Source: a virus
Strand: one strand, 5' to 3'
Virus record (IMG/VR): IMGVR_UViG_3300036651_000595
Span: 1 to 38,485 of that record
Length of the DNA: 38,485 nt
A program made the translations under genes and the position numbers. Of this stretch, positions 2,750 to 38,295 are shown piece by piece (the stretch's first letter is position 1; each line of letters begins with the position of its first letter). The notes below the pieces were generated by a model that saw only the letters and a program-made list of their open reading frames with translations, did no database searches and had not been told where the DNA came from.

Positions 2750-5101
2750 CTAGCTGTTGTAGAGGCCGAGGTCGCTGCGACCGAGGCCACCCCAAATCTG
2801 CTGGTTGTTCACCCAACTCGTCCAGGGTATCGAAGTCGGCAGGCCGCCGGTCCCGAGGTTGTAGGCACCGAACGATGGCTGAGCGGCCCCGAGGTCGCCG
2901 ATCTGGGCGAAGGTGCCCGGCGCGCTCGACACCCGGATCGTAGCCGCCGTGGTGGCTCCCGAGTTGTAGACCATGAGGTAGAGGCGCTCGCCAGGGGTGC
3001 GACCGTTCTCCGGCGTGTAGCCGTTGGCGACGAGATCGAACTTGGCCGGAGCGTTCCCGGAGCTGGGGACCGTGGTGAACATCGTGTTCACGCCAGTCGT
3101 GTAAACGCCGTTCGGCAGGATCAGGCCGTGGCTGTCATAGACCGCGAGCTGCGAGCCGGTGCCTGCGGTGCCGACCTGCGCGCTCTTGAAATTGAGCCAG
3201 ATTTGGTCGAACGTGTCGTCCTCAAGGATGAACGCCACCCAATAGGCCCAACCGCTTGTGAGGGTCTGCGTGTTCGAGTTGTGGGCCGAGCCGAAGTCGA
3301 ACGACGACGCCACGATTCCGTTCTGCCAGTTCGAGCCGCGCTTGCGGTAGACCTGCGAGTGGAAGCGGTTGTCGAGGTCGTCCATGAAGCCGCGCAGCAG
3401 CGGGCCGAGGGTCCGAACGAGATCGCCGGTCTGCGGCTTGGTCCAGTTGAAATACTTGGTGCTCGCCGTAGAGCCGAGCGTGACCTTGATGAAGCCCGAG
3501 GCCGTGTTGCTGAGCAGCGACGTGTTCGTCACAGCCACCGAGTAGGACCAGTTACCGGCGACGTTGAACTCGTCGGTCGTGCCGGTCGCCCCGGTGTAGT
3601 GAAATTGGTTGCCGTTCGGGTCTGTGAACACCCATGCGTAGCTCAGCGCCTCGCCGTTGGGGTCGGTCGCGCCGACCGAGAAGTCCCACTTCAGACTGTC
3701 GGTGGCGTTCGGCACGAGCGCCGGGGGCGTCGTGATGCTCGGAGCGGTAGCCGCGCCGGGCTGAAGCGTCGTGAACGTCGGGAGAGCACCGGAGACCGTG
3801 CCGAAGCCGGAGTTGCCGGTCGGGTTGTCCCATGTCGCGCTGTACGTGTACTCCGTGTTCACCAGGAGGCCCGTGATGTGCCACGAGACCGTGGTGCTCG
3901 GCTGGTCGGGTTGACCGGCCGCTGCGTCCTGCCGGTGTAGGTTCGTCGTGACGCCGGTCCCGAGGTAGACCCGAGCGCCGTCGATGCTGAAGCCGGTCGG
4001 CGCAGTGTCCCACCCGATCACCGCGCCGGTCCCGTCCGAGTCGAGCGAGATCACGTGCAGGCCCGTGGGGGCCGGAGCCACCGTGGCGACGCCGCCGGAC
4101 GTAAGGACGGCGTTGTTTCCGGTGGCGGCCATCGCGTTCGCGATGCCGGTGTGCTTGCCGACATGGGCCGTGCTCGTGGCCGGGTCGTCCGAGGCCAGGT
4201 AGTTCCAGTTCTGGTACTTCTGCGACGCCTGAGCCCACAGGTAGATCCCCGTGCAGATGACATCCGTGGCGGCGTTCAGGGTCGTCGCGACCCCCTCAAA
4301 CCACGCCTGCATGTCCGAGTCGCTGCCGGACTCGGCCTCGGAGAACTCGGGGCAGTTGAACGGCTTGTTCAGCGAGCGCACCCACGAGAGCGCGTTGGCG
4401 AAGGCCGTGGCGAACGGCTTGGTCGAGCCGTCATAGGTCCACGTGCCGCTGAAGTCCCCGTAGAAGTCGATCCCAAGCACGTCGATGATGTCCGCGCCAG
4501 GGTAGTACGAGTTGATGAGCCCGAGGCGGCCGTTGCTGATCCCGTACTCCGTGACGCAGAAGTTCAGGGAGAACTTGTCCCGGACCCCGGCGGTGACCAT
4601 GAGGTTGTGAAGGTGTCGGACGTAGGCGGCGTACTGCGCCGTGCTGCCGTAGGAGTTGTACTTCGGCTGGTCAACCTCGTGGTCGATGGCAAGCTCGATG
4701 TCCGGGTACGTGTAGCCGCCGTAGCTGCCGACGCCGGTCCCGGCGACGGGCGACGAGAAGTTCAGGTTGGCCGTCATGCGGGTGAACATGTCGGTCCAGT
4801 CAGAGTCCCACGAGCCGACCCCGGCGCTGACGCCGTTGGTGCCCTTCTCCCACGTGAACCCGGAAATCTGCTTGGTCTGATTGGAGACCGAAGTGACCAT
4901 CCGGCATCCCTCGTTGAACGCGACCGTATCGAGCGCGCCGGAGGTCTTGAAAGCGTCAGTCGGCCGGGTCCAGTACCAGCGGACGCCGAGTCGCTTACCG
5001 AGGTAGTGCGGGGCCGCGCCAGCTTCCGCGCGGAAGGGGGCAGCGCCGCCGTAGATGGTGCCAGCGGAGGAAAGCGTCCCCCACATGATGTTCTGCGTCA
5101 T
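2750..5101 (-). CDS. Tail-associated glycoside-hydrolase-like protein with Fn3 domains (783 aa)
   Basis: I chose the ATG at 5101, preceded by GAGGT 4 nt upstream, over longer readings because it lies just past the upstream stop. Residues about 15-325 look like a TIM-barrel glycosidase. They include WYWTRPTDAF, DIELAIDHEVDQ (about 132-143, a candidate acid/base Glu after His), VLGIDFYGDF (about 213) and NCPEFSEAESG (about 250, a candidate nucleophile Glu). The arrangement recalls GH26-like enzymes. Residues about 345-530 contain two Fn3/Ig-like segments (APAPTGLHVISLDSDG; PSITTPPALVPNATDSLKW). The rest is a beta-rich C-terminal region. The likely role is degrading capsule or wall-associated polysaccharide at the tail or fibre. 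Family and substrate are inferred; a non-catalytic receptor-binding barrel is possible. Confidence 0.75.
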   Translation of the reverse strand: MTQNIMWGTLSSAGTIYGGAAPFRAEAGAAPHYLGKRLGVRWYWTRPTDAFKTSGALDTVAFNEGCRMVTSVSNQTKQISGFTWEKGTNGVSAGVGSWDSDWTDMFTRMTANLNFSSPVAGTGVGSYGGYTYPDIELAIDHEVDQPKYNSYGSTAQYAAYVRHLHNLMVTAGVRDKFSLNFCVTEYGISNGRLGLINSYYPGADIIDVLGIDFYGDFSGTWTYDGSTKPFATAFANALSWVRSLNKPFNCPEFSEAESGSDSDMQAWFEGVATTLNAATDVICTGIYLWAQASQKYQNWNYLASDDPATSTAHVGKHTGIANAMAATGNNAVLTSGGVATVAPAPTGLHVISLDSDGTGAVIGWDTAPTGFSIDGARVYLGTGVTTNLHRQDAAAGQPDQPSTTVSWHITGLLVNTEYTYSATWDNPTGNSGFGTVSGALPTFTTLQPGAATAPSITTPPALVPNATDSLKWDFSVGATDPNGEALSYAWVFTDPNGNQFHYTGATGTTDEFNVAGNWSYSVAVTNTSLLSNTASGFIKVTLGSTASTKYFNWTKPQTGDLVRTLGPLLRGFMDDLDNRFHSQVYRKRGSNWQNGIVASSFDFGSAHNSNTQTLTSGWAYWVAFILEDDTFDQIWLNFKSAQVGTAGTGSQLAVYDSHGLILPNGVYTTGVNTMFTTVPSSGNAPAKFDLVANGYTPENGRTPGERLYLMVYNSGATTAATIRVSSAPGTFAQIGDLGAAQPSFGAYNLGTGGLPTSIPWTSWVNNQQIWGGLGRSDLGLYNS
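3098..3107. promoter_or_regulatory. CGTGTAAACG site 1
   Basis: Exact copy of the dispersed 10-mer, inside the glycosidase-like gene, where the minus strand reads GTT-TAC-ACG. Shares 13 bp (CGTGTAAACGCCG) with the site at 37972. Confidence 0.55.
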
Positions 5102-5108
5102 GCCGACC

Positions 5109-5420
5109 TCAGTCCAGAAGGTTCGAGCCCGCGAGCGAGCTGATCTGAGCGCCGAGGGTGGCTTCGACTGCGGATGTAGCGGCTGCGGTCGCTGCGGTGG
5201 TAGCGGCCGTTTGGGCGTTGCTGATCGCTTCAGCGGTGGACGTGCTGACAGGCTTGTCGGCGTCCGACGTGTTGTTGACGGCACCGAGGCCGAGGGAGGC
5301 GGCTGTCACGGTCACGTCGCCGGTTGCACCGTTGACGCTCGTGACAGCGCCGGTTGGCGCGGACGGGGCGGCACCGCCGACCTCGCCGTAGTCCGGGGGG
5401 CTGTAAATGGGGAGAGGCAC
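5109..5420 (-). CDS. Small tail-fibre-like protein
   Basis: The core VTSVNGATGDVTVTAASLGL followed by NNTSDADKPVSTSTAEAIS is the classic phage fibre motif VNGxTGxVxLTAxxxGL...N.SDxxKPVSTAT. A long Ala/Thr-rich helix to the C-terminus (TAATTAATAAATSAVEATL) suits trimeric coiled-coil packing. The start is uncertain. GTG at 5420 gives 103 aa beginning MPLPIYSPPDYGE, but it lies in the 3' arm of a perfect hairpin and has no clear ribosome binding site. TTG at 5477 gives 122 aa but abuts GGGAG with no spacing and overlaps the upstream gene. The stop is 7 nt before the start of the glycosidase-like protein, which suggests joint assembly at the tail tip or fibre. Confidence 0.75.
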   Translation of the reverse strand: MPLPIYSPPDYGEVGGAAPSAPTGAVTSVNGATGDVTVTAASLGLGAVNNTSDADKPVSTSTAEAISNAQTAATTAATAAATSAVEATLGAQISSLAGSNLLD

Positions 5421-5445: not shown

Positions 5446-5460
5446 GGGGCCGAGCCGGTG

Positions 5461-6309
5461 TCAGGGCCGGTCGTCAACTCCCGTGCCGGTCAGGCTGTAT
5501 TCCAAGAGCGTGAGCGCGTGCCACGCGACCGCTGCCAGGTGCGGGGAGCCCTCCGGCCACGCCGGGTCGATGTCGGTGTCCTCGCCGTCCCACCACTGCG
5601 TCAGGTGCCGCACGAGCGCCGAGTAGCTCTTGCTCCACTCGAAGCCCTTGCGCCAGTTGTTCGGCGGGTACTTGTGCGCCGTGCGGCCGTAGTGCTCGGC
5701 GACCGCCTTGAGCGCCTTGACCGGGATGAGGTCGAACCGGGCCAGCTTGACCCCCTTCATCGCGCCGGACTCGCTGACCTCGCGAACCTCGGCGGCAGGC
5801 GTGGTGATGAAGCCGCCGCTGAACGGCAGGACCGTCTCGGGGTGACGCCGGTCGAACTCGGCCGACTGGTCGGGGACGATCTGCTGCACCGCGCGGTACT
5901 GCGGCAGGATCGGCCCCAGGCCCTCCCACTTCCCCCACTTCGGGCTCCATCCGGCCTTGAACTGATCGAGCGTGTAAACGGGCAGACCGAGCGCCTTTGC
6001 CAGCGCGACCTCGGCGTTTGCACCCGAGCTGTTTTCCCACCCGTCGAGCGTGCAGACGGCCTCGGCCTCGCCGCAAATCCACGCGCAGTCGGCGGCCAGC
6101 GCCTCGCGGAGATCGAAGTCGTCGGGGTGGAGATCGTCCATGTCGCCGCTCAGCTCGTACCAGTCGATCTCGGGGTGAAGATCGCGGTCCCGCTTGGCCG
6201 GGCTGAATACCTCGTGGCCGCGCGCTTCGAGCTGATCTGCTGCGTCGTCAAACGCCGGGAAATTGAACGCCTTGCGGCCTCGCATGGGGCCGGACACGTA
6301 GACCTTCAC
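5461..6309 (-). CDS. Fused DUF4406 (deoxyribosyltransferase-like) and DUF5664/dATP-dGTP diphosphohydrolase-like protein (282 aa)
   Basis: GTG at 6309 overlaps the upstream TGA as GTGA. The N-terminal half has the DUF4406/nucleoside 2-deoxyribosyltransferase-like pattern: MKVYVSGPMRG (1-11), FPAFDDAADQLEARGHEVFSP, and GWENSSGANAEVALAKALGLP (about 90-110). The C-terminal half (about 176-270) has KGVKLARFDLIPVKALKAVA, KYPPNNWRKGFEWS, RHLTQWWDGED and SPHLAAVAWHALTLLEYSL. This matches the MazG-like dATP/dGTP diphosphohydrolase N-terminal family (DUF5664). The two halves suggest nucleotide-pool manipulation: base exchange or hydrolysis plus dNTP pyrophosphohydrolysis. It is odd that it sits inside the head/tail operon, next to a metallophosphoesterase. 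Activities are inferred from family patterns only. Confidence 0.85.
   Translation of the reverse strand: MKVYVSGPMRGRKAFNFPAFDDAADQLEARGHEVFSPAKRDRDLHPEIDWYELSGDMDDLHPDDFDLREALAADCAWICGEAEAVCTLDGWENSSGANAEVALAKALGLPVYTLDQFKAGWSPKWGKWEGLGPILPQYRAVQQIVPDQSAEFDRRHPETVLPFSGGFITTPAAEVREVSESGAMKGVKLARFDLIPVKALKAVAEHYGRTAHKYPPNNWRKGFEWSKSYSALVRHLTQWWDGEDTDIDPAWPEGSPHLAAVAWHALTLLEYSLTGTGVDDRP
5971..5980. promoter_or_regulatory. CGTGTAAACG site 2
   Basis: Exact copy inside the fused nucleotide-enzyme gene (codons GTT-TAC-ACG). Shares 14 bp (CGTGTAAACGGGCA) with one half of the promoter operator at 13362-13375. Confidence 0.55.
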
Positions 6310-7352
6310 CGTTCGTCGTCCTCCTGAAGGATGATCTTGTACTGAGCGGTTACCCGGCCCTTCACCGGGTCGATGAAGTGGAGTCGCTGGGATGGGATCG
6401 CCGAGGCGGCCATCGTGTCCCGCGCGTAGCGGTTGTCGCTCTCCGTGCTGCCGGTCTGGTAGATCGTCCCCTTTCCGTTCGCCATTGACCACTCGGCGTG
6501 ATTGTGGTAGTGGCCCATGTAGATGTCCCGGAAGTCCCAGGCGTATGCGCCGGAGCGCCACTTGTTCGCGTGGTTGACCATCGTGGTCGGCGAGGCGAAG
6601 CCGTTGCGGCCAACCTCGTCGCCGTGGATCACGAGCGCGCGGTAGTTGCCGATCTCCAACCGCTGAATGTCCTCGGGGCAGTCCTGCCAGGTGATCCGGG
6701 TCTCGTCCTTCAGCAGCGCGCGAGCGAGCTGGTACGTCATGCGGTCGGCGTTGTCCGACTTCGGCACGGCGTCCCGCTTCGAGCCGATCCGGCCGTGGTT
6801 GCCCCACTCGGGGACGACGTGGACGGTCTTGTAGATCGCCAGCGCAGCGCGGAGGGTCTCCACGATCAAGTCCGCGACGTTGACGTACTGATCGAAGAGG
6901 GTCGAGTCGATCTCGTACGGCTGCGTCGGGAAGTTGAACAAGCCCTCGATCATGTCGCCGCCGAAGGCCACCACGCAGTCGTCAACGTCGTGGTCGCTCC
7001 GGTGGATCTTGGTGATCTTGAGGGCCTTCTCGACGTAGCGCCGGACGCGCTCGCGCATGACATTGGTGTTGTAGCTCACCGTGAGCTTCGAGCCCTGCCA
7101 GTCGCTCAGGTGCCAGAGCGCGACCTCGGGCCGCCCCTTGGCCTTGCCGAGCACCGGGAGCTTGACCGGCTTGGGTGCGCCGAGCGCGAGCATGGCGCTC
7201 TGGGCTCCCTCGAACGCGGCGGCGCACAGCGCGTCCTGCTTGTTGCGGGCCTTGGCGAGCTTCCCGCTCATGGCGCGGAGCGCGTCGCGCAGTTCCTCCT
7301 TTTCGAGGTCGGCCCGGAGGATCTCGTCAAACGTGGGGTCGTCGGCGCTCAC
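6306..7352 (-). CDS. Calcineurin-like metallophosphoesterase (348 aa)
   Basis: GTG at 7352 overlaps the preceding TGA. After an N-terminal helical segment rich in charged residues (about 10-40), the metal-binding motifs appear in order: WHLSDWQG (about 80-87), FGGDMIEG (130-137), PEWGNHGRIG (181-190), VIHGDEVG (241-248) and MGHYHNHAEW (279-288). This is the complete set expected for a dinuclear metallophosphoesterase. Phage relatives are often annotated as DNA exonuclease-like or phosphoesterase; the substrate is unknown. It couples directly (GTGA) to the fused nucleotide enzyme and follows the HTH protein, so these three may act together on DNA ends or nucleotides during infection or packaging. 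Confidence 0.88.
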   Translation of the reverse strand: MSADDPTFDEILRADLEKEELRDALRAMSGKLAKARNKQDALCAAAFEGAQSAMLALGAPKPVKLPVLGKAKGRPEVALWHLSDWQGSKLTVSYNTNVMRERVRRYVEKALKITKIHRSDHDVDDCVVAFGGDMIEGLFNFPTQPYEIDSTLFDQYVNVADLIVETLRAALAIYKTVHVVPEWGNHGRIGSKRDAVPKSDNADRMTYQLARALLKDETRITWQDCPEDIQRLEIGNYRALVIHGDEVGRNGFASPTTMVNHANKWRSGAYAWDFRDIYMGHYHNHAEWSMANGKGTIYQTGSTESDNRYARDTMAASAIPSQRLHFIDPVKGRVTAQYKIILQEDDER

Positions 7353-7618
7353 GCCTCATCCTTTCGGTAGCACGGGCAGACGCCGCGTCGATGGTTGCCG
7401 ATGGCGGTGAAGTTGATCTTGATGCCGTGCTTGCCGAGCACGGTCGAGAGCTGCCGCGTGGACCACTTCGGGTTCTCGACGGCGGCCAGGACAGCAGCGC
7501 CGTCACGCTCGGGGAGCTGCTGGGCCTGCTCGATCAGCGCGCAGACCGCTCGGCGGTTGGGGTGCGGGGGTGGGACCGCAAGATCGTCAGCAAGTGTAGA
7601 TGGAGATTGCTTGGGCAA
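7349..7618 (-). CDS. Small putative HTH DNA-binding protein (89 aa)
   Basis: TTG at 7618 is the likely start, with ATGAGGAC just upstream and the previous stop only 7 nt away. The first 20 residues are Pro-rich. Residues 24-45 and 48-80 are helical; NPKWSTRQLSTVLGKHGIKI followed by NFTAIGNHRRGVC reads as a helix-turn-helix with a recognition helix ending in HRR. The C-terminus carries CPCY, so a small metal site is possible. Similar S-x-R-x-L-x-x-x-L...HRRxxCxC proteins occur in phages with no fixed function. Its place between the MuF-like and phosphoesterase genes could fit a packaging or regulatory accessory factor. Confidence 0.65.
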   Translation of the reverse strand: MPKQSPSTLADDLAVPPPHPNRRAVCALIEQAQQLPERDGAAVLAAVENPKWSTRQLSTVLGKHGIKINFTAIGNHRRGVCPCYRKDEA

Positions 7619-7625
7619 CGTGTCC

Positions 7626-11973: not shown

Positions 11974-12288
11974 TCACACCGGGAGGACGTACCCCTTCCC
12001 GAGCAGCTTGGCCTCGCGCTGGTAGAAGTGGCGGCCCTGAGCGCGCGGGTCGCGCTTGGCCTCGACGCGCTTGCTCGGGGGCACGTGGTCGGCGCGGGCC
12101 TCGGTCGCTCCCTTGAGCCACGCCGCGCGGCGGCCGTTCTCTCCCTTGCGGTCGGCCTCCTTGGTGCCCGGCTCGGTGTACTCGAACGGGCACGCCTCGG
12201 TGATCTTCTTTTCGGACGGCTTGCGGGCCTCGCCGAGCACGAACGCTCGACCGGCGAGGAACGCGAGCTGCCGGGTGGTGATCTTCAT
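11974..12288 (-). CDS. Unknown basic protein (104 aa)
   Basis: ATG at 12288 overlaps the SprT-like stop (ATGA). The protein starts MKITTRQLAFLAGRAFVLGE and is rich in Lys, Arg and Glu throughout, with a C-terminal ...QREAKLLGKGYVLPV. The first 20 residues form an amphipathic helix; the rest is probably helical or disordered. I do not recognise a family. As the last gene of the block that starts at the promoter near 13.37 kb, it is coexpressed with the SprT-like and DUF6011 proteins. The high charge would fit nucleic-acid binding, but no motif confirms it. Confidence 0.7.
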   Translation of the reverse strand: MKITTRQLAFLAGRAFVLGEARKPSEKKITEACPFEYTEPGTKEADRKGENGRRAAWLKGATEARADHVPPSKRVEAKRDPRAQGRHFYQREAKLLGKGYVLPV

Positions 12289-12890
12289 TCTGGATCTTGC
12301 TCCTTCTCTTCGATGGTGAGCGAGAGACCGGCGGCCTCGCACTCGGGGTTGGGGCAGAACGGGGTGGCGACTTCGAGCCACTTGCGGGTGGTGCGGACGG
12401 TGTAGCCACAGTCGTCGCACGAGCACTTGACCATCCGCGTGCCCTGCTTCTTGGTCATGCGGTAGCCGGGCTGAAGGCCCTTGTGCGGGTATGGGCCGAG
12501 ATCCGACGCCACCGAGCACAGCACCTTCCACAGCTCGGAGCCGCGCTTGACCTCGCTGGTCGTCGGCTTCCCGTCGAACCCGAGCGCGCGCCACGCCTTA
12601 ACGAAGGCTCCCTTGTGGCCGCTCTCACAGTCATCGCAAGCGTGGATCAGCTCGTGGAGCAGGGTCGCGAGCACCTTGGTCGGCGCGGTCAACGTCGGCG
12701 AGATGAACACCTGCGTCACCCCCTTGCCGCACGAGCGGACGTAGCACTGTCCGATCACGACGCCGTTGCGGTCGTTGCGCGGGAAGCCGACCGAGACCTG
12801 CACCTTCCCAGCTCCGGGCAGCTCGGTCTTGTCGGCGATGAGCGCCAGCAGCCTCTCGGCTGCCAGCGTCAACCACTCTTCGCGTGTCAT
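12285..12890 (-). CDS. SprT-like zinc metalloprotease domain protein (201 aa)
   Basis: ATG at 12890, 2 nt after the previous stop. The catalytic signature LLHELIHACDD places HExxH at H79-E80-H83. It is followed by GHKGAFVKAWRALGF, where the third zinc ligand His is expected in SprT/Spartan domains. The C-terminal part has CSCDDCGYTV and TPFCPNPEC, a four-cysteine zinc ribbon as in SprT-like proteins. Cellular SprT/Spartan proteins cleave DNA-protein crosslinks. In phages the family is widespread but its role is undefined; it could clear proteins from DNA or process a host factor. It sits with a DUF6011 zinc protein in a small operon. Confidence 0.88.
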   Translation of the reverse strand: MTREEWLTLAAERLLALIADKTELPGAGKVQVSVGFPRNDRNGVVIGQCYVRSCGKGVTQVFISPTLTAPTKVLATLLHELIHACDDCESGHKGAFVKAWRALGFDGKPTTSEVKRGSELWKVLCSVASDLGPYPHKGLQPGYRMTKKQGTRMVKCSCDDCGYTVRTTRKWLEVATPFCPNPECEAAGLSLTIEEKEQDPE

Positions 12891-12892: not shown

Positions 12893-13321
12893 TCAGAGCC
12901 TCCCTGCACAGATGGGGCCGATCCCGGCCTCGATGCTGTCCGGGTTGGTGAGGGTCCGGCCGCACACGCAGCAGGCTCCGAAGCAGCGGCCGAACTCGGC
13001 GGCCTCGGTCAGTGTGATCCGGTCCTCGGCGTAGAGCTTGCGGATGGTGCCCTTGCTGTACTCGAAGCTCACGCCGCTCGGGTCCACGACGATCAGCTCG
13101 GCGTAGAGGTAGCCCGACCGGCCCTCGCGGACCCGGTAGAAGTCCCCCTCGTGCTTGTAGACGCCGATCTCGGAGACCGGGTGGAGCGCGCGGGTGGCGA
13201 CGATTGAGTCCCAGCTCGGGGCTCCAACGGCGTCGAGGTAGTTGTCAGCGCCGGGGGTGTGGCCGCAAGCCTTGACGTGCGGGATGTCCACGTCGGCGGC
13301 CTTGCAGTGTCCGCAAATCAT
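12893..13321 (-). CDS. DUF6011-type zinc protein (142 aa)
   Basis: ATG at 13321 with AAGGAG about 8 nt upstream, the first gene after the promoter at 13356-13384. The N-terminus MICGHCK with a nearby ACGH could form one zinc site. The C-terminal 32 residues, with CFGACCVCGRTL, a Ser, and GIGPICAGRL, match the DUF6011 pattern CxxCGRxL...S...GIGPxC common in phage and actinobacterial proteins. The middle (YKHEGDFYRVREGRSGYLYA) is beta-rich. Function is unknown; the domain is often attached to DNA-associated proteins. It is the promoter-proximal member of a three-gene unit with the SprT-like gene. Confidence 0.82.
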   Translation of the reverse strand: MICGHCKAADVDIPHVKACGHTPGADNYLDAVGAPSWDSIVATRALHPVSEIGVYKHEGDFYRVREGRSGYLYAELIVVDPSGVSFEYSKGTIRKLYAEDRITLTEAAEFGRCFGACCVCGRTLTNPDSIEAGIGPICAGRL

Positions 13322-13355: not shown

Positions 13356-13384
13356 AAGGTATGCCCGTTTACACGGGCTGTCAA
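13356..13384 (-). promoter_or_regulatory. Sigma70-type promoter with palindromic operator in the spacer
   Basis: On the minus strand TTGACA (13384-13379) is followed by exactly 17 nt and TACCTT (13361-13356). The spacer is almost wholly the palindrome GCCCGT-GTAA-ACGGGC (13378-13363), so a bound repressor would block polymerase. Its core CGTGTAAACG recurs elsewhere in the window. The TGA inside TTGACA is also the stop codon of the upstream 68-aa gene. Confidence 0.75.
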
Positions 13385-13587
13385 CCCGTGGAGAGGGCCA
13401 GATATTGAGCGCCGATCTTGACGAGGCCCACCCGGTCGTTCACGGCCGGGGTGTAGTACTTCGGCACCTTGACCTTGATCGCCGTGGCGCTGCCGTCGAT
13501 CTGGCACAGCACGTTCGGCGTGATCGCCGTGATGGTGCCGGGGATCAGCTCGAAGGGGTTGCCGCGCTTGCGGCCCAGCAAGATCAC
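13381..13587 (-). CDS. Small beta-barrel-like protein (68 aa)
   Basis: GTG at 13587 overlaps the upstream TGA (GTGA). The sequence is almost all beta: FELIPGTITAITPNVLCQID, then GSATAIKVKVPKYYTPAVND and RVGLVKIGAQYLALSTG. The G-T-I-T-x-I...V-x-x-D-G-S...Y-x-P-x-V-x-D-R-V pattern resembles small OB- or SH3-like domains found near head-completion or baseplate genes of actinophages. I cannot name the family with confidence. It follows the putative small terminase, so an assembly or packaging role is plausible. Its stop codon lies inside the -35 box of the next promoter. Confidence 0.7.
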   Translation of the reverse strand: MILLGRKRGNPFELIPGTITAITPNVLCQIDGSATAIKVKVPKYYTPAVNDRVGLVKIGAQYLALSTG

Positions 13588-14381
13588 TTGTTGTCCCTTG
13601 GGTTGCCGCGCTTGCGTGCCTCGGTCTCGGCCTCGCGCACGAGGCTATGGCCGGTGGACACGATGTCCTTCGCCGTGGCGACCACCTTGGCCGAATCGCT
13701 CCCGGCCACGGGCAGCGCGAGCATCTCTTCTCGCACCGTCCGGCGCAGCTCGGGGTCGTGAACGTCGTGGCCGAGCTTGGTCAGGATGGCGACGACGACG
13801 CCGTTCAGCGCGTCCACCTTCTGCGCCTCGATTTCGAGCTTCCGCACGTCGAGTTTCGCACCGATCCAGATTTTGATGAGTTCGACCAGATGCTTCCGCT
13901 CGCGAAGCTGCATCTCGTAGAACACGTTGGCCTGCGCCTTGCTCGTGATGTCCGTGCCGGGGAACTCGCCGGACCCGACGCGCTTCTCTTCGGCCTTGCC
14001 CCACCCGAGCTGCTCGGGGTCGAGTTCGAGGATCATCTCGTCCAGGTAGCGGATCTTGGCGATGGTGCGCCGGAACTCAAGCTCGAACGCCGCGATGGGG
14101 TTGGCCTCGATGTCGTCGCCGGGGATCGGCGTGACGAACTTGAGCAGCCGGGCCACGGCCTTTGTCCGGTTGCGCTTGTCCACGGCGGCCGGGCTCGCGC
14201 CGCCATGCCGCGCGCAGACGCGCAGACCGATGCACCGGGGCTTGCGGCACCGGAGCGGCACCCCGGCCTCGTTCGAGCGGGTCTTGGAGCGCGCCACACA
14301 GCGCGCTTCCTCCGGGAACGGGGCCTCGAAGCCATCGGAGTGTGTGAAGGGGCCGTCAGGGTAGGCAGGTGACCAAGGCAC
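13584..14381 (-). CDS. Putative terminase small subunit (265 aa)
   Basis: GTG at 14381, 3 nt after the lysin stop. The N-terminal third contains a Cys/His cluster (EEARCVARSK, RCRKPRCIGLRVCARHGG) leading into GGASPAAVDKRNRTKAVARL. This C-x(n)-C...HGGxxPxxxxxR signature is frequent in actinophage proteins annotated as small terminase or packaging-associated. The rest is a long helical region (about 95-260), including FRRTIAKIRYLDEMILELD and RERKHLVELIKIWIGA, compatible with an oligomerising coiled coil. It lies upstream of terL but is separated from it by five genes and a structured gap, which is unusual for a small terminase. An HNH-like or regulatory protein is an alternative. Confidence 0.6.
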   Translation of the reverse strand: MPWSPAYPDGPFTHSDGFEAPFPEEARCVARSKTRSNEAGVPLRCRKPRCIGLRVCARHGGASPAAVDKRNRTKAVARLLKFVTPIPGDDIEANPIAAFELEFRRTIAKIRYLDEMILELDPEQLGWGKAEEKRVGSGEFPGTDITSKAQANVFYEMQLRERKHLVELIKIWIGAKLDVRKLEIEAQKVDALNGVVVAILTKLGHDVHDPELRRTVREEMLALPVAGSDSAKVVATAKDIVSTGHSLVREAETEARKRGNPRDNK

Positions 14382-20747: not shown

Positions 20748-20848
20748 AGACCCGCGCGAGAGGCTGGAAAGCTGCTCGGCCAGGGTGAGGGAGCAATTTC
20801 ATGCCCTCCACGGTCCTTCCAGCTCGCCTCTCTGTGACCCACATCACG

Positions 20849-21103
20849 TATGACAGAGCGATGACAGAGCGGTGACAGCAAGAATATGCCTCTGACCTGC
20901 ATGTATGACAGAGATGACGTGTATGACAGCACTCTTGCACCTTTATACGTATGTGCGGGTGTGCGGGCGCACACACCCCTCCCCTCTCTACTTACCTTCC
21001 TCATACGCAAAGGAAAGAAGTTGCTGTCATCGCTGTCATCCGCGTTTCCACCGCAGGTCAACCGTATGACAGCAACCGCGATGTATGACAGCACTGCTGT
21101 CAT
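20849..21103. repeat. TGACAG iterons (candidate origin)
   Basis: TATGACAG occurs at 20849-20856, 20904-20911, 20922-20929, 21065-21072 and 21084-21091. Variants GATGACAG (20860-20867) and GGTGACAG (20871-20878) lie beside the first. Inverted copies CTGTCAT lie at 21024-21030, 21033-21039 and 21097-21103. The last direct and inverted copies form a perfect 19-bp palindrome, ATGACAGCA-C-TGCTGTCAT (21085-21103). Confidence 0.85.
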
Positions 21104-23632: not shown

Positions 23633-24273
23633 CACCGGCCTCCGAAGAGATGCGGCCACGCCTCGGCTCGCAGGTCGGCGTCCTGCCGGGCGCGGCGCAG
23701 GAAGAGCGCGCCATGCCGGGCCGCGTCGGTGGCGTGTGGCATCCCTCGCCGGTACAGACGGAGCGCCTGCATCCTTTCGTCCGGGAGTGCCAGCATATCC
23801 GAGGGATCTTGCCGGAACGGCGGGCGCGGCGGGTTGCCGAGCAGCATGGCGTCACGGAGCGAGCTGCCGACGCGCGGGGAGGACAGGAAGTCGTCCGATT
23901 GCGAGATTTGCCGCACGCGGAAGTCCTCGTATCCCCACGCCGCGAACGGGTGCCGGGCGAGCACGTCGAGACCGGCCAGCACGGACCTCAGCTCTTGCAG
24001 GTCGTGGACCTTGATGCCGTGCGAGTCGGCGGCCTCAAGCGTGGCCTCTGGGATCTCGCACAGCCCTTCGGCGGCGCGCTCCAACCGGCCGACCTGAATG
24101 TGGTCGAACGTCAGGATCGCGTCGCGCAGACCGGCCAGGTTCGCGCGTCCCTCCCCGGCCAGCCACGCGGGCTCGACGTTGACGATGAAGATGCCGGTCG
24201 TGCTGCCGGGGTCGAACCAAACGAGCTGGGCGCTCGACGGCGGCAAAGGGGGTTCGATCTTTTTCTTGCTCAC
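23632..24273 (-). CDS. RuvC-like Holliday-junction resolvase (213 aa)
   Basis: GTG at 24273 overlaps the polymerase stop (GTGA). The RNase H-fold signature begins LVWFDPGSTTGIFIV (catalytic D21). It continues with WGYEDFRVRQ (about 115, acidic residue after a strand) and ends with PHATDAARHGALFL (about 180), where the Asp before Ala-Ala-x-H-G is typical of RuvC-like phage nucleases. It would resolve branched DNA before packaging. An insertion of about 60 residues between the first and second motifs (FDHIQVGRLERAAEGLCEIP) is longer than in RuvC itself. The context with polymerase, SSB-like and Sak4-like genes agrees. Confidence 0.85.
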   Translation of the reverse strand: MSKKKIEPPLPPSSAQLVWFDPGSTTGIFIVNVEPAWLAGEGRANLAGLRDAILTFDHIQVGRLERAAEGLCEIPEATLEAADSHGIKVHDLQELRSVLAGLDVLARHPFAAWGYEDFRVRQISQSDDFLSSPRVGSSLRDAMLLGNPPRPPFRQDPSDMLALPDERMQALRLYRRGMPHATDAARHGALFLRRARQDADLRAEAWPHLFGGR

Positions 24274-26132
24274 TTTTCTCCACTCCAACGGGTGCCGATG
24301 ATCTCGGCCTTTGCGGTGAGTTCCATATCGCCGATCTTGGTGTACATGCACTCTTCGAGGACGCGGCAGGCGTGCTCGGCGTCGCTCTCGGGCACTTCGA
24401 GGATGATCTCGTCGTGGACCGGGAGCCAGATGTTGCGACCGTAGCCGCGAGCGTCCAGGTTGACCAGCGCGTCGCCGAGAGCGTCGCGGCCGGAGGACTG
24501 AATCGCATAGTTGCCGTTTGCGTACGGCTTGAACGGGTTTTGCGGGATCAGGCGGCCCCACGGGTTCGTGATCGAGTCGAACCGGGCGACGTGCTCGCTC
24601 CACCGGACCAGACCGGCGTAGGTCTTGCGCCACGCGGCCCACAGCGCCTTGCCCTCGGCGTACGGCTTGCCGAGCTGAGCGGCGATCTTCTTAGGCCCGG
24701 CCATGTACTGCTGGGCGAAGTCCAGGATCTTCGCGGCCTTGTACTGGTCCGGCGACTCTTCCTTGCCAGCGAAGTCGGGGAAGATCCGCTCGGCCGTGAG
24801 CACGTGCTGACTCAGCCCTTCGAGGACGATCTGCCAGAGCAGCGGGTCGTCGCTGAACGCCGCCGCTATGCGGATCTCCTGCCCCTCGTAGTCAGCGCCG
24901 ACGAACACGTTGCCGGGCGCGCTTACGACAAAGCACCCCCTGAGCGGACCCTTCTTGAAAGTCTGCATCGGCGGGTTCCTCATCGACATGCGGCCGGTGT
25001 ATGCCTGCTGCGTGAGGATGCGCGGGTGGACGAAGCCGTTGCGGTCTTGGGCGCGGTAGCACTGCGCCAGGTTCGAGCGCATGTTCTTGTGCGTCGAGAG
25101 CGTCAGCAGCGCCGCCAGCACGTCGCCAGCGGGCGTGCCGGGCTCGTACAGCTCCACGAGGTACTCAAGCTGCTCGCTCGCCAGCTTCGGTCGGCCGGTC
25201 GGCGTGCGCTCCACGAAGCTGACGCCGTTGCCTTCGAGCCAGAGCCCGACCTTGGGCGAGCCGCTCTTGCAGTCGCAGACGCGCTGGACGTAGTTGTCGG
25301 CCGCCTCGAACGTCGCGTTGATCTCGTTCAGCCGTTCGAGCGTGTACTCGGCGTCGAGCTTGTGGCCGCGCACCTGCACGGCGGTCATCAACCGCTCTAT
25401 GCGCTGCTCGCGGCGGCCCAACCGCGCCATCCCAGCCGCACGGAGACGGGCGTTCAGGATGTCGAGCAGCCGACGTACGTAGATGGCGTCGAAACCGCCG
25501 TAGCGGCTGAATGAGGGGTCGTCCAGGGGGATGTTCGTGAAGCCCCACGCCTTCAGCGCCTTGCCGGGTTTCAGCCCGTTCTTGGTCGTGGTGCCCTTGC
25601 GCGCCTCTTTGGGGGCCAGCTCGTAGAACCGGGCGTGCATCTCCTTCTCGGCGGCCACGAGCTGCCAGTCGATGAAGATGGTCGAGAGGGTCTTGAGGTC
25701 CTTCGCGTTGGTCTCGCCGGGGCGCAGCAGCGCGGCCATCGGGAACGTGTCGAGCGAGCGGTCGTCCACCCCGAGGTCGATCCCGAACTCGCGCAAGATC
25801 CACAGCACGTCGTAATTCGTGTGGCTGACAAAGCGTTTACACGGGTCATTCAAGAGCCCGACGATGCGCCGACGCCAGAACGGGTCAGTGGGGTCGAGCA
25901 TCCACGCCTGCGTGGCGGTGCCGAACTGCACGGCGCGCAGCTTCGCGTCCGGGTGCCAGGCACCGAGGTCCTCGTCAATGGCCGTGGTCTCTACGTCCAG
26001 GCCGAAGATCGTTTCCGACTCGCAGAACTGCCGCCAGCGACCGCCGAAGTGGGCGCGGCGTTCCGGGTCAGAGGGTGGGAGTGCAAAGACCTTGACGGCT
26101 TCGCCGTCGATCTCAGCGGTGATGAGTGGCAA
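24270..26132 (-). CDS. DNA polymerase I (family A) with 3'-5' exonuclease (620 aa)
   Basis: The start is TTG at 26132 with GGAG 6 nt upstream. The exonuclease domain has FGLDVETTAID (D46, E48), HTNYDVLWIL and YGGFDAIYVRRLL. The polymerase domain has motif A FVGADYEGQEIRI (about 400), motif B-like DQYKAAKILDFAQQYMAG (about 470, Lys and Tyr of the O-helix) and motif C WLPVHDEIILEV (about 575, His-Asp-Glu). No 5'-3' exonuclease domain, as usual in phage. It replicates the phage genome with the primase-helicase. A strong hairpin separates it from the SSB-like gene upstream, and with the rare TTG start this may limit its level. One CGTGTAAACG site lies inside the gene at 25834. Confidence 0.95.
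   Translation of the reverse strand: MPLITAEIDGEAVKVFALPPSDPERRAHFGGRWRQFCESETIFGLDVETTAIDEDLGAWHPDAKLRAVQFGTATQAWMLDPTDPFWRRRIVGLLNDPCKRFVSHTNYDVLWILREFGIDLGVDDRSLDTFPMAALLRPGETNAKDLKTLSTIFIDWQLVAAEKEMHARFYELAPKEARKGTTTKNGLKPGKALKAWGFTNIPLDDPSFSRYGGFDAIYVRRLLDILNARLRAAGMARLGRREQRIERLMTAVQVRGHKLDAEYTLERLNEINATFEAADNYVQRVCDCKSGSPKVGLWLEGNGVSFVERTPTGRPKLASEQLEYLVELYEPGTPAGDVLAALLTLSTHKNMRSNLAQCYRAQDRNGFVHPRILTQQAYTGRMSMRNPPMQTFKKGPLRGCFVVSAPGNVFVGADYEGQEIRIAAAFSDDPLLWQIVLEGLSQHVLTAERIFPDFAGKEESPDQYKAAKILDFAQQYMAGPKKIAAQLGKPYAEGKALWAAWRKTYAGLVRWSEHVARFDSITNPWGRLIPQNPFKPYANGNYAIQSSGRDALGDALVNLDARGYGRNIWLPVHDEIILEVPESDAEHACRVLEECMYTKIGDMELTAKAEIIGTRWSGEK
25834..25843. promoter_or_regulatory. CGTGTAAACG site 4
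   Basis: Plus strand reads CGTTTACACG. It lies inside the polymerase gene, in frame CCG-TGT-AAA-CGC, a different phase from sites 1 and 2. Shares CGTTTACACGGG with the promoter operator. Confidence 0.55.
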
Positions 26133-31576: not shown

Positions 31577-31579
31577 GGA

Positions 31580-33141: not shown

Positions 33142-33149
33142 CAGGGGCT

Positions 33150-33172: not shown

Positions 33173-33181
33173 CACATCCCT

Positions 33182-33463: not shown

Positions 33464-33470
33464 GGATTCC

Positions 33471-34128: not shown

Positions 34129-34567
34129 CGGGGGTGTCCTCCTTTATCGGTAGCGCATCCGGCGGGAAGATCACCATGCCCTCGGCAAGAGCCCCTTGGC
34201 CCACCCACAGAAACGGTCCAGCCCAGACCAGCTCGCCGGTCACGAACCATGAGCCCGCTTGGCTCAGGCCCACCAAGAAGGCTACCCCGGCAAAGACACG
34301 GAGCACCCACGTAGAGTGACGGTCAAACTTGGTCAAAACGGCGTACGCCATACCGAGCGCCAGGACCAGCAGGACGACGCCGACCGTCCTCATTCCGCCG
34401 GGGACGGCGTTGATGAGGATGTGGTAGGCCGGACTCCGGGCGGCGCGGTTGCCGTCGAGCGCAAAGCCGAGGCCGATCCACGCCGTAATCACGGTCAGGA
34501 CCGTGCCGACGAACGACCAGAGGTTCAGAGCTTGCTCGCGAGTATTGGGGCGAAGCCTAAGTCGCAT
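34076..34567 (-). CDS. Multi-pass membrane protein (163 aa)
   Basis: ATG at 34567, overlapping the end of the tail gene by 11 nt. Hydrophobic segments: LWSFVGTVLTVITAWIGLGF (about 16-35), TVGVVLLVLALGMAYAVLTK (about 61-80) and VLRVFAGVAFLVGLSQAGSW (about 88-107), with a probable fourth at WAGPFLWVGQGALAEG. The acidic tail (KEDTPDAVEPDRSGRGG) is likely soluble. A three- to four-pass protein opening the lysis cassette could be a holin or antiholin. No specific family recognised. Confidence 0.72.
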   Translation of the reverse strand: MRLRLRPNTREQALNLWSFVGTVLTVITAWIGLGFALDGNRAARSPAYHILINAVPGGMRTVGVVLLVLALGMAYAVLTKFDRHSTWVLRVFAGVAFLVGLSQAGSWFVTGELVWAGPFLWVGQGALAEGMVIFPPDALPIKEDTPDAVEPDRSGRGGNGECL

Positions 34568-37115
34568 CGGCGAAGCCTCCGTCCGACGAGTATGCCCTGA
34601 CGCGGTAGGCGTAGAGGGTCTGTGTGACCACAGTGTAGTCGGTGTAATCCGTGCTCGGGCTCAGCGTCGCCACGAGGACCTCGGGCGTGCCGTTCGTGAG
34701 ATCCTGCCGGTAGACCTCGTTGTAGATCGCCGTGAACGTGCCCGGCGGGTTGACGATGCCGAGATGCACGGTGCCGTCGTCGTTGTTGATCGTCAGCGTG
34801 ACGGTCGGTGCGTCCGGCGGGTTCAGGTTGACGACGGGCGTGCTCGTGCCGACCGGGCTGTAGAGGTTCAGGTCAACCGTGTCGGCGTACTCGACCATGA
34901 TCGTGATGGGCTGCGACGGAAGAGGCCAGTCCACCGAGTAGCTCAGCACGTTCGCGACGGTCAAGACCGAGACCGAGAGGTTCGCGGTGCCCTGCCACGA
35001 GGCCGTGCCAGGGTTGCCATTGGCGTTGCCGCCATCGAAGTACCCGTTCAGGTTCGTGCCGTACTCGATCAGCACCGCGTCCACGTAGCCGACCTGTCCG
35101 GCGGTCGTCGGGTTGACGTTGACGATGGCGAGGTAGCTCGTGGTGCTCTGGGCGACGAAGGTGCAGGACCCGCGCACGAACACACCGGCCGTGACCGGCG
35201 TCATTTCCTCGTAGCTGCCGAGCTGCGTCACGCCATCGGCGTCGAGCGCCTCGATCAGCATGGGCGGGTCGGTCCCCACGGTGTCAACCGTGGTGTACGC
35301 CGAGAGAGTGTAACTCTTGCCGGGGATCGTCGGGAACGGGAACCGGGCCGCCTGCGTGAACGCTCCGGCCGTAACCCACGCGAGCTTCATGGAGTGCGAG
35401 GGGATGACCGAGTGCGCGGCGCTTTGCGAGATCGTGATGCCGCCGACCGAGCCCCACCCGGTCGTGTCCGTCTCGAAGCTCGGGTTCGTGCAGGCGTTTA
35501 CACGGCTTGAGTAGAGATCGCCGGAGTCCACCTGGACGGTGCCGTTCTGGTCGAGCGCCTTGACGCGGTAGATCGTCTCGGTCACCCCGGCGTCCACGGT
35601 CCAGTCCACCGTGAAGGGGTTGGTCGAGAGTGTCGCGCCGTCTGCCGGGCTCGTGATCGTGGGCGCACCCGGCACGTCGATGGCCTGGACCTCGATGATC
35701 GTGTAGCTCGACACGTCGCCGTACTGGTCATAGACCCGGACCCGGATGTCGTAGGCCGTGCCTCCGGTGAAGGTGCCCGCTGGGATCGAGAGGAAGTTGT
35801 TGGTGCTCGTGGGGTTCAGCAGCAGCGTCCACGAGTCGGCGGCGTGGACCGAGTAGCCGACATCGAAGCCGCCTTGCACTGCGCCGGACGCGAGCGAGCT
35901 GAAGCTCCACTCGACCACGAGCGCCTCGTTGATGTTGATGAAGTCCTGGTCGTTGGGCGTCGAGATGGCCGGGGGGTTCGGCGGCTGCGTATACGTCACG
36001 CGCGCCAGGCCGTTGACGCCGACCTGTCCGTCGATGCCCGCCGGGGGAACGTGGGCGTAGCTCGCCGTGCCGGTGAAGCTGCCCGAGAGGTAGTTCGAGC
36101 CTCCCCCGCCACCCGCGCCGTGCGTGGCGAAGTTCTGCGAGCTGTCGGTCTCGCTACCGGACGCGCCGCCGCCGCCGCCGTAGTAGCCTCCACCGCCACC
36201 GCCACCGCCAGCAGTGAAGGCGTCGCTTGAGCCGGTGAAGTCAGCCGTCGTGACGTGCGCGCCGGTCCCGCCGGTCCCGACAGCGCCAGCCGAGCCAGCT
36301 TCACCCCACGTGCCGGTCGCCGTGCCGCCTGCGCCTCCCGCCGTCTGCGAGCCGCCCTTGCCCTGCGAGTTGGCGACCGAGAGCGTGCTGCCGCGCGACG
36401 CGCCGCCACCCGTGCCGCCAGTGACGCCGCCGCCGTTGCCGCCGTAGGACGGGCCAGCAGTCGGGAAGTAGTTGGGGCCGTCCCCCGCGCCAGAGCCGGG
36501 CACCGTGTCGTTGGTGTAGGGCGGGTCGGGTGTGGTTGGGTTGGCCGTAGCCGTGTTCTCGGTGGCGCTGCCGGGGTGCGTTCCACCCCCGCCTCCCCCG
36601 CCGCCTGCGACCGCAATCCGGTTCGAGAGCGCCGTGCCGCCGGAGCGGATGTCAGTAGCGCCGCCGCCACCGTTGCCGGGGAGCTGCGAGCCAGCGAATC
36701 CGACCGAGATGTCCGAGTAGCCGCCGTTGCCGCCACCGTTCCAGCCGCCGGGGCCGTAGTTTGTGGTGGACGGTGTGGACGTGGTGCCCTCAATGACGTT
36801 GCCGGTGTTCCCGTAGCCGCCAGCGCCGCCGACGTAGACGCCGAAGCTGTCGCCGGACGACACCGGGAGGGTGCCCGCGACATAGCCGACGAGGGATTTG
36901 GTGTTGGCGGCGTACTTGATGAGGCTTTGGGCGTAGCCGTTGTTGTACGCGAGCGCGCCGGAGCTGCCAGAGATCCCGAAGCCACCGAACGTCCCGAACG
37001 CGCCTTGGCCGCCGGGCGCACCCCACAGCTCGAAGTAGACAGCCGTGACGTACGCCGGGACGGTGAACGTCTGCGCCGCTCCGGTGAATCGGAAGTCTTG
37101 GGTGACCTTTGCCAT
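34557..37115 (-). CDS. Glycine-rich minor tail / receptor-binding-type protein (852 aa)
   Basis: ATG at 37115 with AAGGTAG upstream. Residues about 1-375 hold MAKVTQDFRFTGAAQTFTVP, a Trp-G-A (ELWGAPGG) and Gly runs (GGGGGGGGTHPGSATENT; AGGGGGGGGYYGGGGGASG), like Gly-rich adhesin or tail domains. Residues about 380-530 form Fn3-like segments (PPAISTPNDQDFINI; PGAPTITSPADGATLSTNPF). Residues about 545-710 look like a CBM4/9-type carbohydrate module (ACTNPSFETDTTGWGSVGGI; SYTLSAYTTVDTVGT). A final Fn3 segment ends the protein. It probably contacts host surface glycans. It is followed directly by lysis genes. One CGTGTAAACG site lies inside at 35495. Confidence 0.85.
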   Translation of the reverse strand: MAKVTQDFRFTGAAQTFTVPAYVTAVYFELWGAPGGQGAFGTFGGFGISGSSGALAYNNGYAQSLIKYAANTKSLVGYVAGTLPVSSGDSFGVYVGGAGGYGNTGNVIEGTTSTPSTTNYGPGGWNGGGNGGYSDISVGFAGSQLPGNGGGGATDIRSGGTALSNRIAVAGGGGGGGGTHPGSATENTATANPTTPDPPYTNDTVPGSGAGDGPNYFPTAGPSYGGNGGGVTGGTGGGASRGSTLSVANSQGKGGSQTAGGAGGTATGTWGEAGSAGAVGTGGTGAHVTTADFTGSSDAFTAGGGGGGGGYYGGGGGASGSETDSSQNFATHGAGGGGGSNYLSGSFTGTASYAHVPPAGIDGQVGVNGLARVTYTQPPNPPAISTPNDQDFININEALVVEWSFSSLASGAVQGGFDVGYSVHAADSWTLLLNPTSTNNFLSIPAGTFTGGTAYDIRVRVYDQYGDVSSYTIIEVQAIDVPGAPTITSPADGATLSTNPFTVDWTVDAGVTETIYRVKALDQNGTVQVDSGDLYSSRVNACTNPSFETDTTGWGSVGGITISQSAAHSVIPSHSMKLAWVTAGAFTQAARFPFPTIPGKSYTLSAYTTVDTVGTDPPMLIEALDADGVTQLGSYEEMTPVTAGVFVRGSCTFVAQSTTSYLAIVNVNPTTAGQVGYVDAVLIEYGTNLNGYFDGGNANGNPGTASWQGTANLSVSVLTVANVLSYSVDWPLPSQPITIMVEYADTVDLNLYSPVGTSTPVVNLNPPDAPTVTLTINNDDGTVHLGIVNPPGTFTAIYNEVYRQDLTNGTPEVLVATLSPSTDYTDYTVVTQTLYAYRVRAYSSDGGFADAT
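35495..35504. promoter_or_regulatory. CGTGTAAACG site 5
   Basis: Plus strand reads CGTTTACACG. Inside the Gly-rich tail gene, in frame CGT-GTA-AAC-GCC, a third codon phase, using the AT-ending codon GTA. Confidence 0.55.
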
Positions 37116-37125
37116 GCGATCTACC

Positions 37126-38295
37126 TTACGTGGCGACGGTCTGCCAGGTCCACGTCATGTCCGCTGCCCCGTCGAGGGGCAGGGTCCACACGAGGGCCTG
37201 AACGCGCCGGAGCCGGGACTTGAGGGGTGGCACGAGGTCGAGGTTGGGGTCGATCATAAGGATCTGGTCGTATTGCCAGGCCAGCGGGAACGGGCTCGTG
37301 GAGACCGTGAACTGCTCGGCGGGCGTGAGATCCTGCGCGACGACGCTCTGCGCGTAGCTCACCAGACCGGCGTAGTCGGCCGCGCTCACTGAAACGATCT
37401 TCTTGATGAGTCGCTTGCGGTTGACCGCACTGCCGGGGCTCTGGGCCGAGTTATCGACGTAGGTGTATTGCGTCGTCCCCTCGACGGGCACGCCAGAAAG
37501 GTTCTGCATCACGAAGCGCCACCAGTTCGGCACGCTGAAGAGGTCTTGCTGCGACGTGCGCGCCTCGGCGACGATGTTCTTGTCGGCCGAGAGATCGAAG
37601 GTCCATTCGGCGTTGGTGCTCGTGGGCGTCACGTAGGGCACGAGCTGGAACACGCCGTTCCAGTCCACCCACAACGGCTGATAGCCGACGGACTTCAGCA
37701 GTTGATTCACGATGTCGAGGTAGAGAGTTTGGTTCGAGGCGTCGAACGGAAACGTCATGTCGGCCGCGAGAGTGCTCGTGGTGTCCACGGCGTTGATGAC
37801 CGCGCCGGGGAACGCTTCCGCGATGAGCGCCTGCGCTTCAGTGATCGGGTCCGCTCCGGCGAGCACCTGCACGCTATCGCCGACCGGCTGATTGAGGTAG
37901 TAGAGCAGGTCGTAGCCGGTGATCGAGAGCACACTCGGGCGCTTCGAGTTGTCGAACGTCGGCGTGCTCAGCGTGTAAACGCCGAGATAGAACCGGGCCG
38001 CCTGCTCGGTGTCCGGGTCGATGATGTCCATGTAGGGCTTGACGAAATCGGTGCCGTAGACCACCGGGTTGTCCGAGTCGAGCATGAGGGTGCAGGTGCG
38101 GTGGATCGAGGCCGTCGAGTCGCTCTTGATCGAGCTGCCCGAGGACATCCAAGCCGTGATGTCCTGGACGTAGGTGAGGTTGGCGTCGTAACGGTGCGCG
38201 CCGTACGCGATCTTGATGTTGGCCTTGTTCTGCAAGAGATCCGTGACGAACTGTGTCGAGAGGCTCTGCCGGGGGGACGCGGTGAGCGGCTGCAT
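37126..38295 (-). CDS. Minor tail protein, DUF5047-like (389 aa)
   Basis: ATG at 38295 overlaps the upstream TGA by one base; a GTG at 38298 would add one residue. Segments such as NIKIAYGAHRYDANLTYVQD, STASIHRTCTLMLDSDNPVV, KPYMDIIDPDTEQAARFYLG and VYTLSTPTFDNSKRPSVLSI are typical of actinophage minor tail proteins near the baseplate (DUF5047-like, from memory). Later parts, DIVNQLLKSVGYQPLWVDWN and PLAWQYDQILMIDPNLDLVP, are consistent with a hub-like fold. It lies after another tail gene and before the Gly-rich protein. One CGTGTAAACG site occurs at 37972. Confidence 0.8.
   Translation of the reverse strand: MQPLTASPRQSLSTQFVTDLLQNKANIKIAYGAHRYDANLTYVQDITAWMSSGSSIKSDSTASIHRTCTLMLDSDNPVVYGTDFVKPYMDIIDPDTEQAARFYLGVYTLSTPTFDNSKRPSVLSITGYDLLYYLNQPVGDSVQVLAGADPITEAQALIAEAFPGAVINAVDTTSTLAADMTFPFDASNQTLYLDIVNQLLKSVGYQPLWVDWNGVFQLVPYVTPTSTNAEWTFDLSADKNIVAEARTSQQDLFSVPNWWRFVMQNLSGVPVEGTTQYTYVDNSAQSPGSAVNRKRLIKKIVSVSAADYAGLVSYAQSVVAQDLTPAEQFTVSTSPFPLAWQYDQILMIDPNLDLVPPLKSRLRRVQALVWTLPLDGAADMTWTWQTVAT
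37972..37981. promoter_or_regulatory. CGTGTAAACG site 6
   Basis: Exact copy inside the DUF5047-like gene (codons GTT-TAC-ACG), with the same 13-bp extension as site 1. Confidence 0.55.

Follow-up and report, generated by a model that had tools for sequence, protein, structure and literature searches.

The spelling of a dispersed, operator-like phage site follows an SprT-like metalloprotease across unrelated phages

We found that a 10-nucleotide word, CGTGTAAACG, recurs through a 38,485-bp IMG/VR virus record (IMGVR_UViG_3300036651_000595; the whole stretch is called the window below) as sites that are almost certainly real and selected at the DNA level, and that across about 100 unrelated phages the spelling of this site follows an SprT-like metalloprotease that is also encoded in the window. 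Because the spelling tracks the protein, the protease appears to be a phage regulator of a new type that acts across the genome. We favor a reading, with a probability of roughly 0.6, in which the SprT-like protein would bind the sites as autoregulated operators and intragenic roadblocks, forming an operator/stoperator-like network with the protease as its likely release device.

Dispersed sites in the window and its relatives

The window holds six exact copies of CGTGTAAACG, three per strand, compared to 0.04 expected from dinucleotide shuffles and ~0.03 from Markov models of order 1 and 3. A preliminary description of this DNA had reported at least six copies in both orientations, estimated fewer than 0.1 by chance, and placed one in a palindrome filling the 17-nt spacer of a TTGACA/TACCTT promoter, all of which we could reproduce:

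3098 to 3107, plus strand: exact CGTGTAAACG inside the gene at 2750-5284 (minus strand), encoding GVYTT, codon phase 2; seen directly
5971 to 5980, plus strand: exact CGTGTAAACG inside the gene at 5461-6807 (minus strand), encoding PVYTL, codon phase 2; seen directly
13366 to 13375, minus strand: exact CGTGTAAACG in the spacer of the TTGACA-17-TACCTT promoter, operator position; seen directly
25834 to 25843, minus strand: exact CGTGTAAACG inside the DNA polymerase I gene at 24270-26132 (minus strand), encoding PCKRF, codon phase 1
35495 to 35504, minus strand: exact CGTGTAAACG inside the gene at 34557-37115 (minus strand), encoding RVNAC, codon phase 0
37972 to 37981, plus strand: exact CGTGTAAACG inside the tail gene at 37126-38298 (minus strand), encoding GVYTL, codon phase 2
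13363 to 13378, minus strand: extended inverted repeat GCCCGTGTAAACGGGC around the promoter site; seen directly
13379 to 13384, minus strand: -35 element TTGACA, consensus match
13356 to 13361, minus strand: -10-like element TACCTT, consensus match

No other 10-mer of the window is as strongly over-represented as CGTGTAAACG (P ~2e-12, uncorrected for ~5e5 possible 10-mers and resting, as do our other Poisson values, on simple base-composition models), and no one-mismatch copies occur in the window against ~1.35 expected. Although V-Y-T is the peptide encoded at three of the five genic copies, the probability that chance, codon usage or a protein-level repeat explains the copies is practically negligible. 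The genic copies use three codon phases (phase 2 three times, phases 1 and 0 once each), as had been described, and 1000 codon-preserving shuffles averaged 1.09 copies (counting the fixed intergenic one) and peaked at 4; six were never reached, which rules out chance and codon bias. Furthermore, the Streptomyces phage Intolerant carries 25 exact copies, with 25 in JackieB and 24 in Microdon (first 50 kb of each of the latter two; well below 1 by chance). Aligned sites of these three phages are identical in 20/23 and 22/25 cases versus ~0.40 for same-GC 10-mers, and in 21/23 versus 0.62 for a closer pair, a conservation above background that the preliminary description had named as a check.

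The core of the word is GTGTAAAC, an 8-bp quasi-palindrome with half-sites GTGT and GTTT. Across 18 site-rich contigs, which hold 177 exact sites versus 0.31 expected, substitutions are tolerated at positions 1 and 10, as T at position 4 and rarely as A at position 2, and are practically absent elsewhere. Relatives infecting Streptomyces, Arthrobacter and Microbacterium carry 20-40 copies, located in promoters and fairly evenly through genes, and the motif occurs in phages that infect actinobacteria, proteobacteria and cyanobacteria. Intolerant has a site in its TerL gene that the window's TerL gene lacks, indicating that individual positions are gained and lost although the word itself persists. 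HutC/GntR operators follow the pattern GT-N-TA-N-AC, which GTGTAAAC fits; a host GntR/HutC operator was nevertheless dropped as a candidate because the scanned window-phage proteins contain no GntR domain and the motif spans unrelated hosts. In openly accessible literature, our searches found neither CGTGTAAACG nor GTGTAAACG described as a phage repeat, and no account of SprT-like proteins as repressors.

The SprT-like gene and the covariation of its loop with the site

The only gene common to the site-rich contigs, several of which were found blind by DNA pattern alone, encodes the SprT-like protein. In the window it lies behind the site-bearing promoter, next to a gene for a DUF6011 protein that the site-rich contigs do not share:

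12893 to 13321, minus strand: first gene behind the site-bearing promoter, C-terminus DUF6011 (PF19474)
12285 to 12890, minus strand: SprT-like zinc metalloprotease gene, 201 amino acids from the ATG at 12890, second gene of the operon and proposed site binder
12642 to 12656, minus strand: HELIH catalytic motif, both His and the Glu invariant in 52 homologues
12426 to 12452, minus strand: loop KKQGTRMVK beside the zinc ribbon, the Arg codon (12435-12437) varying together with the site's outer base pair

The protein consists of an HExxH metalloprotease domain followed by a C-terminal zinc ribbon, and its active site and third zinc ligand (H104, E105, H108 and H117) are invariant in the 52 homologues. 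It is 44% identical to the 'SprT-like protease' of Intolerant and has homologues in Barnstormer and Crewmate; one homologue bears the annotation 'antirestriction protein'. A PDB profile search returned Spartan only at E 0.05, as the nearest, weak relatives of solved structure by sequence, and the AlphaFold model is confident except at the termini and the loop region (predicted local distance difference test score, pLDDT, 88.7).

Eighty IMG/VR loci retrieved by SprT homology and 9 further loci, many of them fragments, contain 179 exact 10-mers versus 1.24 expected. In SprT contigs without CGTGTAAACG, the top repeat found de novo is GTTTAAAC, a symmetric version of the GTGTAAAC site, while a locus with the loop TRY (L130) uses GTGTACAC, which completes the three ways of pairing GTKT half-sites; both of these forms are full palindromes. 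Among the non-redundant loci with an Arg loop, 70/89 are significantly enriched for GTKTAMAC (750 sites versus 43.1 expected), compared to 33 sites versus 72.5 expected for a control motif read backwards, and 66/71 loci of a second set, retrieved by patterns outside the zinc-ribbon loop, behave alike. Blind 16-nt pattern scans of IMG/VR returned contigs in numbers at chance level (~21 each by our own estimate), and SprT was present in 10/21 of those with the site in a TTGACA spacer versus 0/17 with the inverted site. Isolates with many sites include Honk (33), YesChef (26), Zeta1847 (22), Dinoroseobacter R5C (17) and Pseudanabaena Pan1 (16), and the two SprT isolates with few sites, E. coli phage ECO1230-10 (5) and Achromobacter Mano (4), have retained one immediately upstream of SprT. 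Eight isolates without a full SprT match have 0-3 sites, and a TerL relative of the window that has no SprT contains neither this motif nor its Tyr-loop counterpart described below. GTKTAAAC is likewise absent from Lomovskayavirus phiBT1, which has no SprT, and from phage Milly (Timquatrovirus), whose SprT match covers only 36 residues.

Nearly all SprT-like proteins compared carry a Q-x-T-R-M/L loop before the zinc-ribbon cysteines. Tyr replaces Arg in two lineages, G004 (KVQKTYM) and L257 (KVAKTYL), and the motif has switched at both loci. G004 lacks GTGTAAAC and GTTTAAAC and carries 19 copies of CTGTAAAG versus 0.06 expected, and L257 carries 13 copies of CTTTAAAG versus 0.09 expected. In the non-redundant set, 2/2 Tyr-loop loci have CTKTAAAG in place of the Arg-type motif, and the class holds 34 CTKTAMAG sites versus 1.0 expected. 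In a tree built without the loop columns, G004 and L257 occupy widely separated positions, and the sister of each (L191 and L225) is of the Arg type, with a contig that keeps GTGTAAAC or GTTTAAAC; the Arg-to-Tyr change arose twice independently. The switch is symmetric, outer G...C becoming C...G, as would be predicted if a dimer binds a palindrome. Where the loop and most or all ribbon cysteines have been lost, as in Rollins and Bordetella CN1, we counted 0 and 1 sites, and 0/3 loci of this class are enriched. Because motif identity co-varies with the loop, the sequence comparison makes it very likely that the SprT-like protein itself binds the sites. The preliminary description had recognized no repressor gene in the window; a candidate binder is in fact encoded there, and we infer that it acts in repression.

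Four alphaproteobacterial SprT loci (L181, L184, L186 and L187; Methylocapsa, Hyphomicrobiales, Mesorhizobium and Methylobacterium) have only two sites each, one ~1.0-1.5 kb ahead of the point where the SprT match begins and one 0.3-0.5 kb beyond it, perhaps a more compact arrangement of the system.

Placement of the sites, proposed mechanism and alternatives

In Barnstormer, 14/23 sites are not fully inside genes (9% expected; P 9e-10), and in Crewmate 11/21 (8% expected; P 2e-7), most of these non-genic sites lying 8-80 nt before a start codon. Several Barnstormer sites take up the space between the two elements of a recurring CTTGCG...TATGCT/TAGACT promoter, with the site inverted in one case. 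Site density 0-150 nt upstream of the SprT domain start is 2.22 per kb versus 0.48 overall (103 loci), and 39/98 loci have a site within 300 nt upstream of SprT versus 13 expected. In most lineages the sites are spaced more evenly than expected at random (coefficient of variation 0.49-0.68 versus ~0.95; non-significant in Zeta1847 and Barnstormer), and orientation counts reveal no consistent strand bias (window 3/3, Intolerant 21/19, YesChef 6/20, Barnstormer 15/8). At least five sites in L037 and L075 (Intolerant) occupy precisely the gap between Shine-Dalgarno sequence and start codon, suggesting that they additionally affect translation or leader position.

The sites are selected at the DNA level, associated with promoters, and tied to SprT and its loop. 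We propose that a symmetric SprT-like dimer would read the two facing half-sites GT[G/T]T of GTGTAAAC, the Q-x-T-R-M loop of the zinc ribbon contacting the outer G of each. In promoter spacers, including that of its own operon, the protein would stop initiation and thereby control its own expression, and on intragenic copies along the genome it would hinder elongation as a roadblock; transcriptional repression is probably its main role. The protease domain would be the likely release or induction device, through self-cleavage, perhaps on a signal, or through cleavage of a partner. Since the catalytic residues are invariant in all 52 homologues, a protease step probably belongs to the regulatory cycle, in analogy to IrrE/DdrO and CapP/CapH (PMC10904395), and likewise to LexA-type repressors. 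Sites in promoter spacers and upstream of SprT, their regular occurrence in genes and their DNA-level conservation thus give good support to the dispersed operator/stoperator-like system of the preliminary description, but its likening to Cluster A does not extend to behavior, as these are 8-bp quasi-palindromes without consistent strand bias.

The SprT-like protein could instead be an SPRTN/ArdC-like enzyme that, bound at regular intervals, clears or cleaves host proteins (silencers, restriction enzymes or crosslinked proteins), with transcription control confined to autoregulation. This would accord with the invariant HExxH residues, with Spartan as nearest solved relative by sequence, though weak, with the more regular than random spacing in several lineages, with the antirestriction annotation of one homologue, and with R388 ArdC, a single-stranded DNA-binding protein with a metalloprotease domain that overcomes restriction (PMC7213743). 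However, more than half of the Barnstormer and Crewmate sites lie outside genes, often in promoters, and ArdC is described as binding single-stranded DNA rather than reading a duplex palindrome, so we regard this explanation as rather unlikely. Even spacing, use of both strands and the many intragenic copies would also suit a part in organizing or segregating the chromosome of the phage, in the manner of parS or nucleoid sites, or a part in replication or packaging. Such a role seems quite improbable given that sites gather ahead of the SprT gene and inside promoter spacers, and that parS-type sites are usually clustered. Finally, pairs of an HExxH protease and a separate repressor are known (PMC10904395) and CapP is the best, if weak, fold match, so that another phage or host protein might bind the sites with SprT as a linked protease partner, as in ImmA/ImmR, IrrE(PprI)/DdrO and CapP/CapH. 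Against this, no gene besides SprT is common to the site-rich contigs, the motif tracks the zinc-ribbon loop and disappears with its loss, and it spans phages of three bacterial groups, making a separate binder very improbable.

Several observations weigh against regulation through direct binding by the SprT-like protein. Only two Tyr-loop cases are testable, a third (L008, 5 kb) has neither motif, and the Tyr-loop proteins differ at other residues too (both read KVxKTY). The loop block is modelled with low confidence (pLDDT ~68), and a PDB fold search with the model gave nothing significant, only weak metallopeptidase matches with CapP first. Among the Arg-loop loci, 19/89 are non-significant (mostly partial contigs or 2-5 sites) and L102 and L079 have zero sites; moreover, many loci were retrieved with SprT as the query, so their co-occurrence is partly ascertained through SprT. 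The window phage has only 6-7 sites versus 20-40 in relatives, and regular spacing is also compatible with non-regulatory roles.

Experiments show Powerpuff, a phage of Cluster AZ, to be temperate and homoimmune although it has no identifiable repressor, and an SprT-like protease is common to AZ and EH phages (PMC8758107). YesChef, a homoimmune relative of Powerpuff, has 26 sites and a Q-x-T-R-M SprT, which together make the Cluster AZ repressor question directly testable, with the SprT-like protein as a candidate for the 'unidentified repressor' of these temperate phages. That it is a lysogeny repressor we suggest only tentatively. At somewhat less than even odds, SprT-like phage proteins may form a previously unrecognized class of sequence-specific regulators that combine DNA reading by the zinc-ribbon loop and a metalloprotease in one chain, silence the phage genome via dispersed palindromes and release it by proteolysis; they would then account for the immunity repressors that temperate phages of Cluster AZ, and perhaps EH, have seemed to lack. 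No integrase was found in the Streptomyces relatives or among the window-phage proteins scanned, and use of the system by lytic phages is therefore conceivable too. Many isolated actinophages have a gene whose sole annotation is 'SprT-like protease', and phages of proteobacteria and a cyanobacterium have it as well; this gene now gains a DNA target and a molecular hypothesis, and the Arg/Tyr loop switch would offer a ready-made specificity code.

Known systems and the window genome

Cluster A phages (L5, Bxb1) resemble the present system in having many near-identical sites throughout the genome, some in promoters and some at the repressor locus, with a motif that diverges along with the repressor (PMC6550527). 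We likewise found many dispersed, highly similar sites, at least one of them in a promoter. However, Cluster A sites are asymmetric, 13-14 bp long and mostly in one orientation relative to transcription, and are bound by a helix-turn-helix repressor, whereas we found 8-bp quasi-palindromes in both orientations, often genic, and a zinc-ribbon metalloprotease. The repressor of Streptomyces phage R4, also an actinophage, is said to act at an early promoter and many sites (PMC10276819); it is a different annotated protein, and the likeness is one of description rather than of compared site sequences. Cluster K phages carry an SprT-related gene (PMC3203893), and their Start-Associated Sequences (SAS) recall the Streptomyces sites located exactly between Shine-Dalgarno sequence and start codon, but SAS are 13-bp, asymmetric, in one orientation and in one genome half. 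GGGATAGGAGCCC just before start codons in one orientation is not what we see, as the sequence differs and most sites lie away from start codons. In L102 (loop AGTRL), 15 copies of GGGAGCAG lie between 351 and 11761, mostly directly before an ATG, resembling SAS; this locus was an early exception, its repeat being Shine-Dalgarno-associated and non-palindromic.

With SprT/SPRTN and ArdC, the phage proteins share an HExxH domain and a zinc-binding C-terminal part, but score below the Pfam SprT cut-off (PF10263; 18.9 bits for the window protein versus 25.6). To our knowledge, known SprT/SPRTN/ArdC members act on DNA without sequence specificity. ImmA/ImmR, CapP/CapH and IrrE(PprI)/DdrO also tie an HExxH metallopeptidase to operator sites, through a separate DNA binder, whereas here both parts are apparently in one chain.

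Nearly all genes of the window lie on the minus strand, including those for TerL, portal, endolysin, primase, DNA polymerase I, a Sak4-like annealing protein, exonuclease, helicase and tail proteins. In the TerL comparison, the annotated phages closest to the window infect Streptomyces, among them Intolerant and JackieB (~45% amino-acid identity), and a DNA polymerase query, intended as a control family, retrieved only the window's own virus. Two further IMG/VR contigs with a common metagenome number match the window at >99.9% and are the same virus; together they add ~12 kb (major head protein, head-tail adaptor, major tail protein and tape measure) with one more GTGTAAAC, which brings the full genome to ~50 kb. 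No annotated repressor was found among the window-phage proteins scanned, small open reading frames being only partly covered; a sub-threshold HTH_32 match lies in an 89-amino-acid frame at 7349-7618. A ~400 bp repeat (93.5%) links window positions 484-882 to DNA just past the window's right end in G001, and 100 bp of it recur at 38318-38417, so the window ends may be assembly joints. A 265-amino-acid protein of unknown function (13584-14381), with relatives at ~30% in the TerL relatives L009 and L010, adjoins the site-bearing promoter. Seven copies of CGGGACCGGCG between 914 and 36279, mainly within the long genes 2750-5284 and 34557-37115, are perhaps repetitive coding sequence. Just past the primase stop, five GTATGACAG repeats and inverted TGCTGTCAT copies form a local array (20848-21091) that may be an iteron-type origin or a regulatory array.

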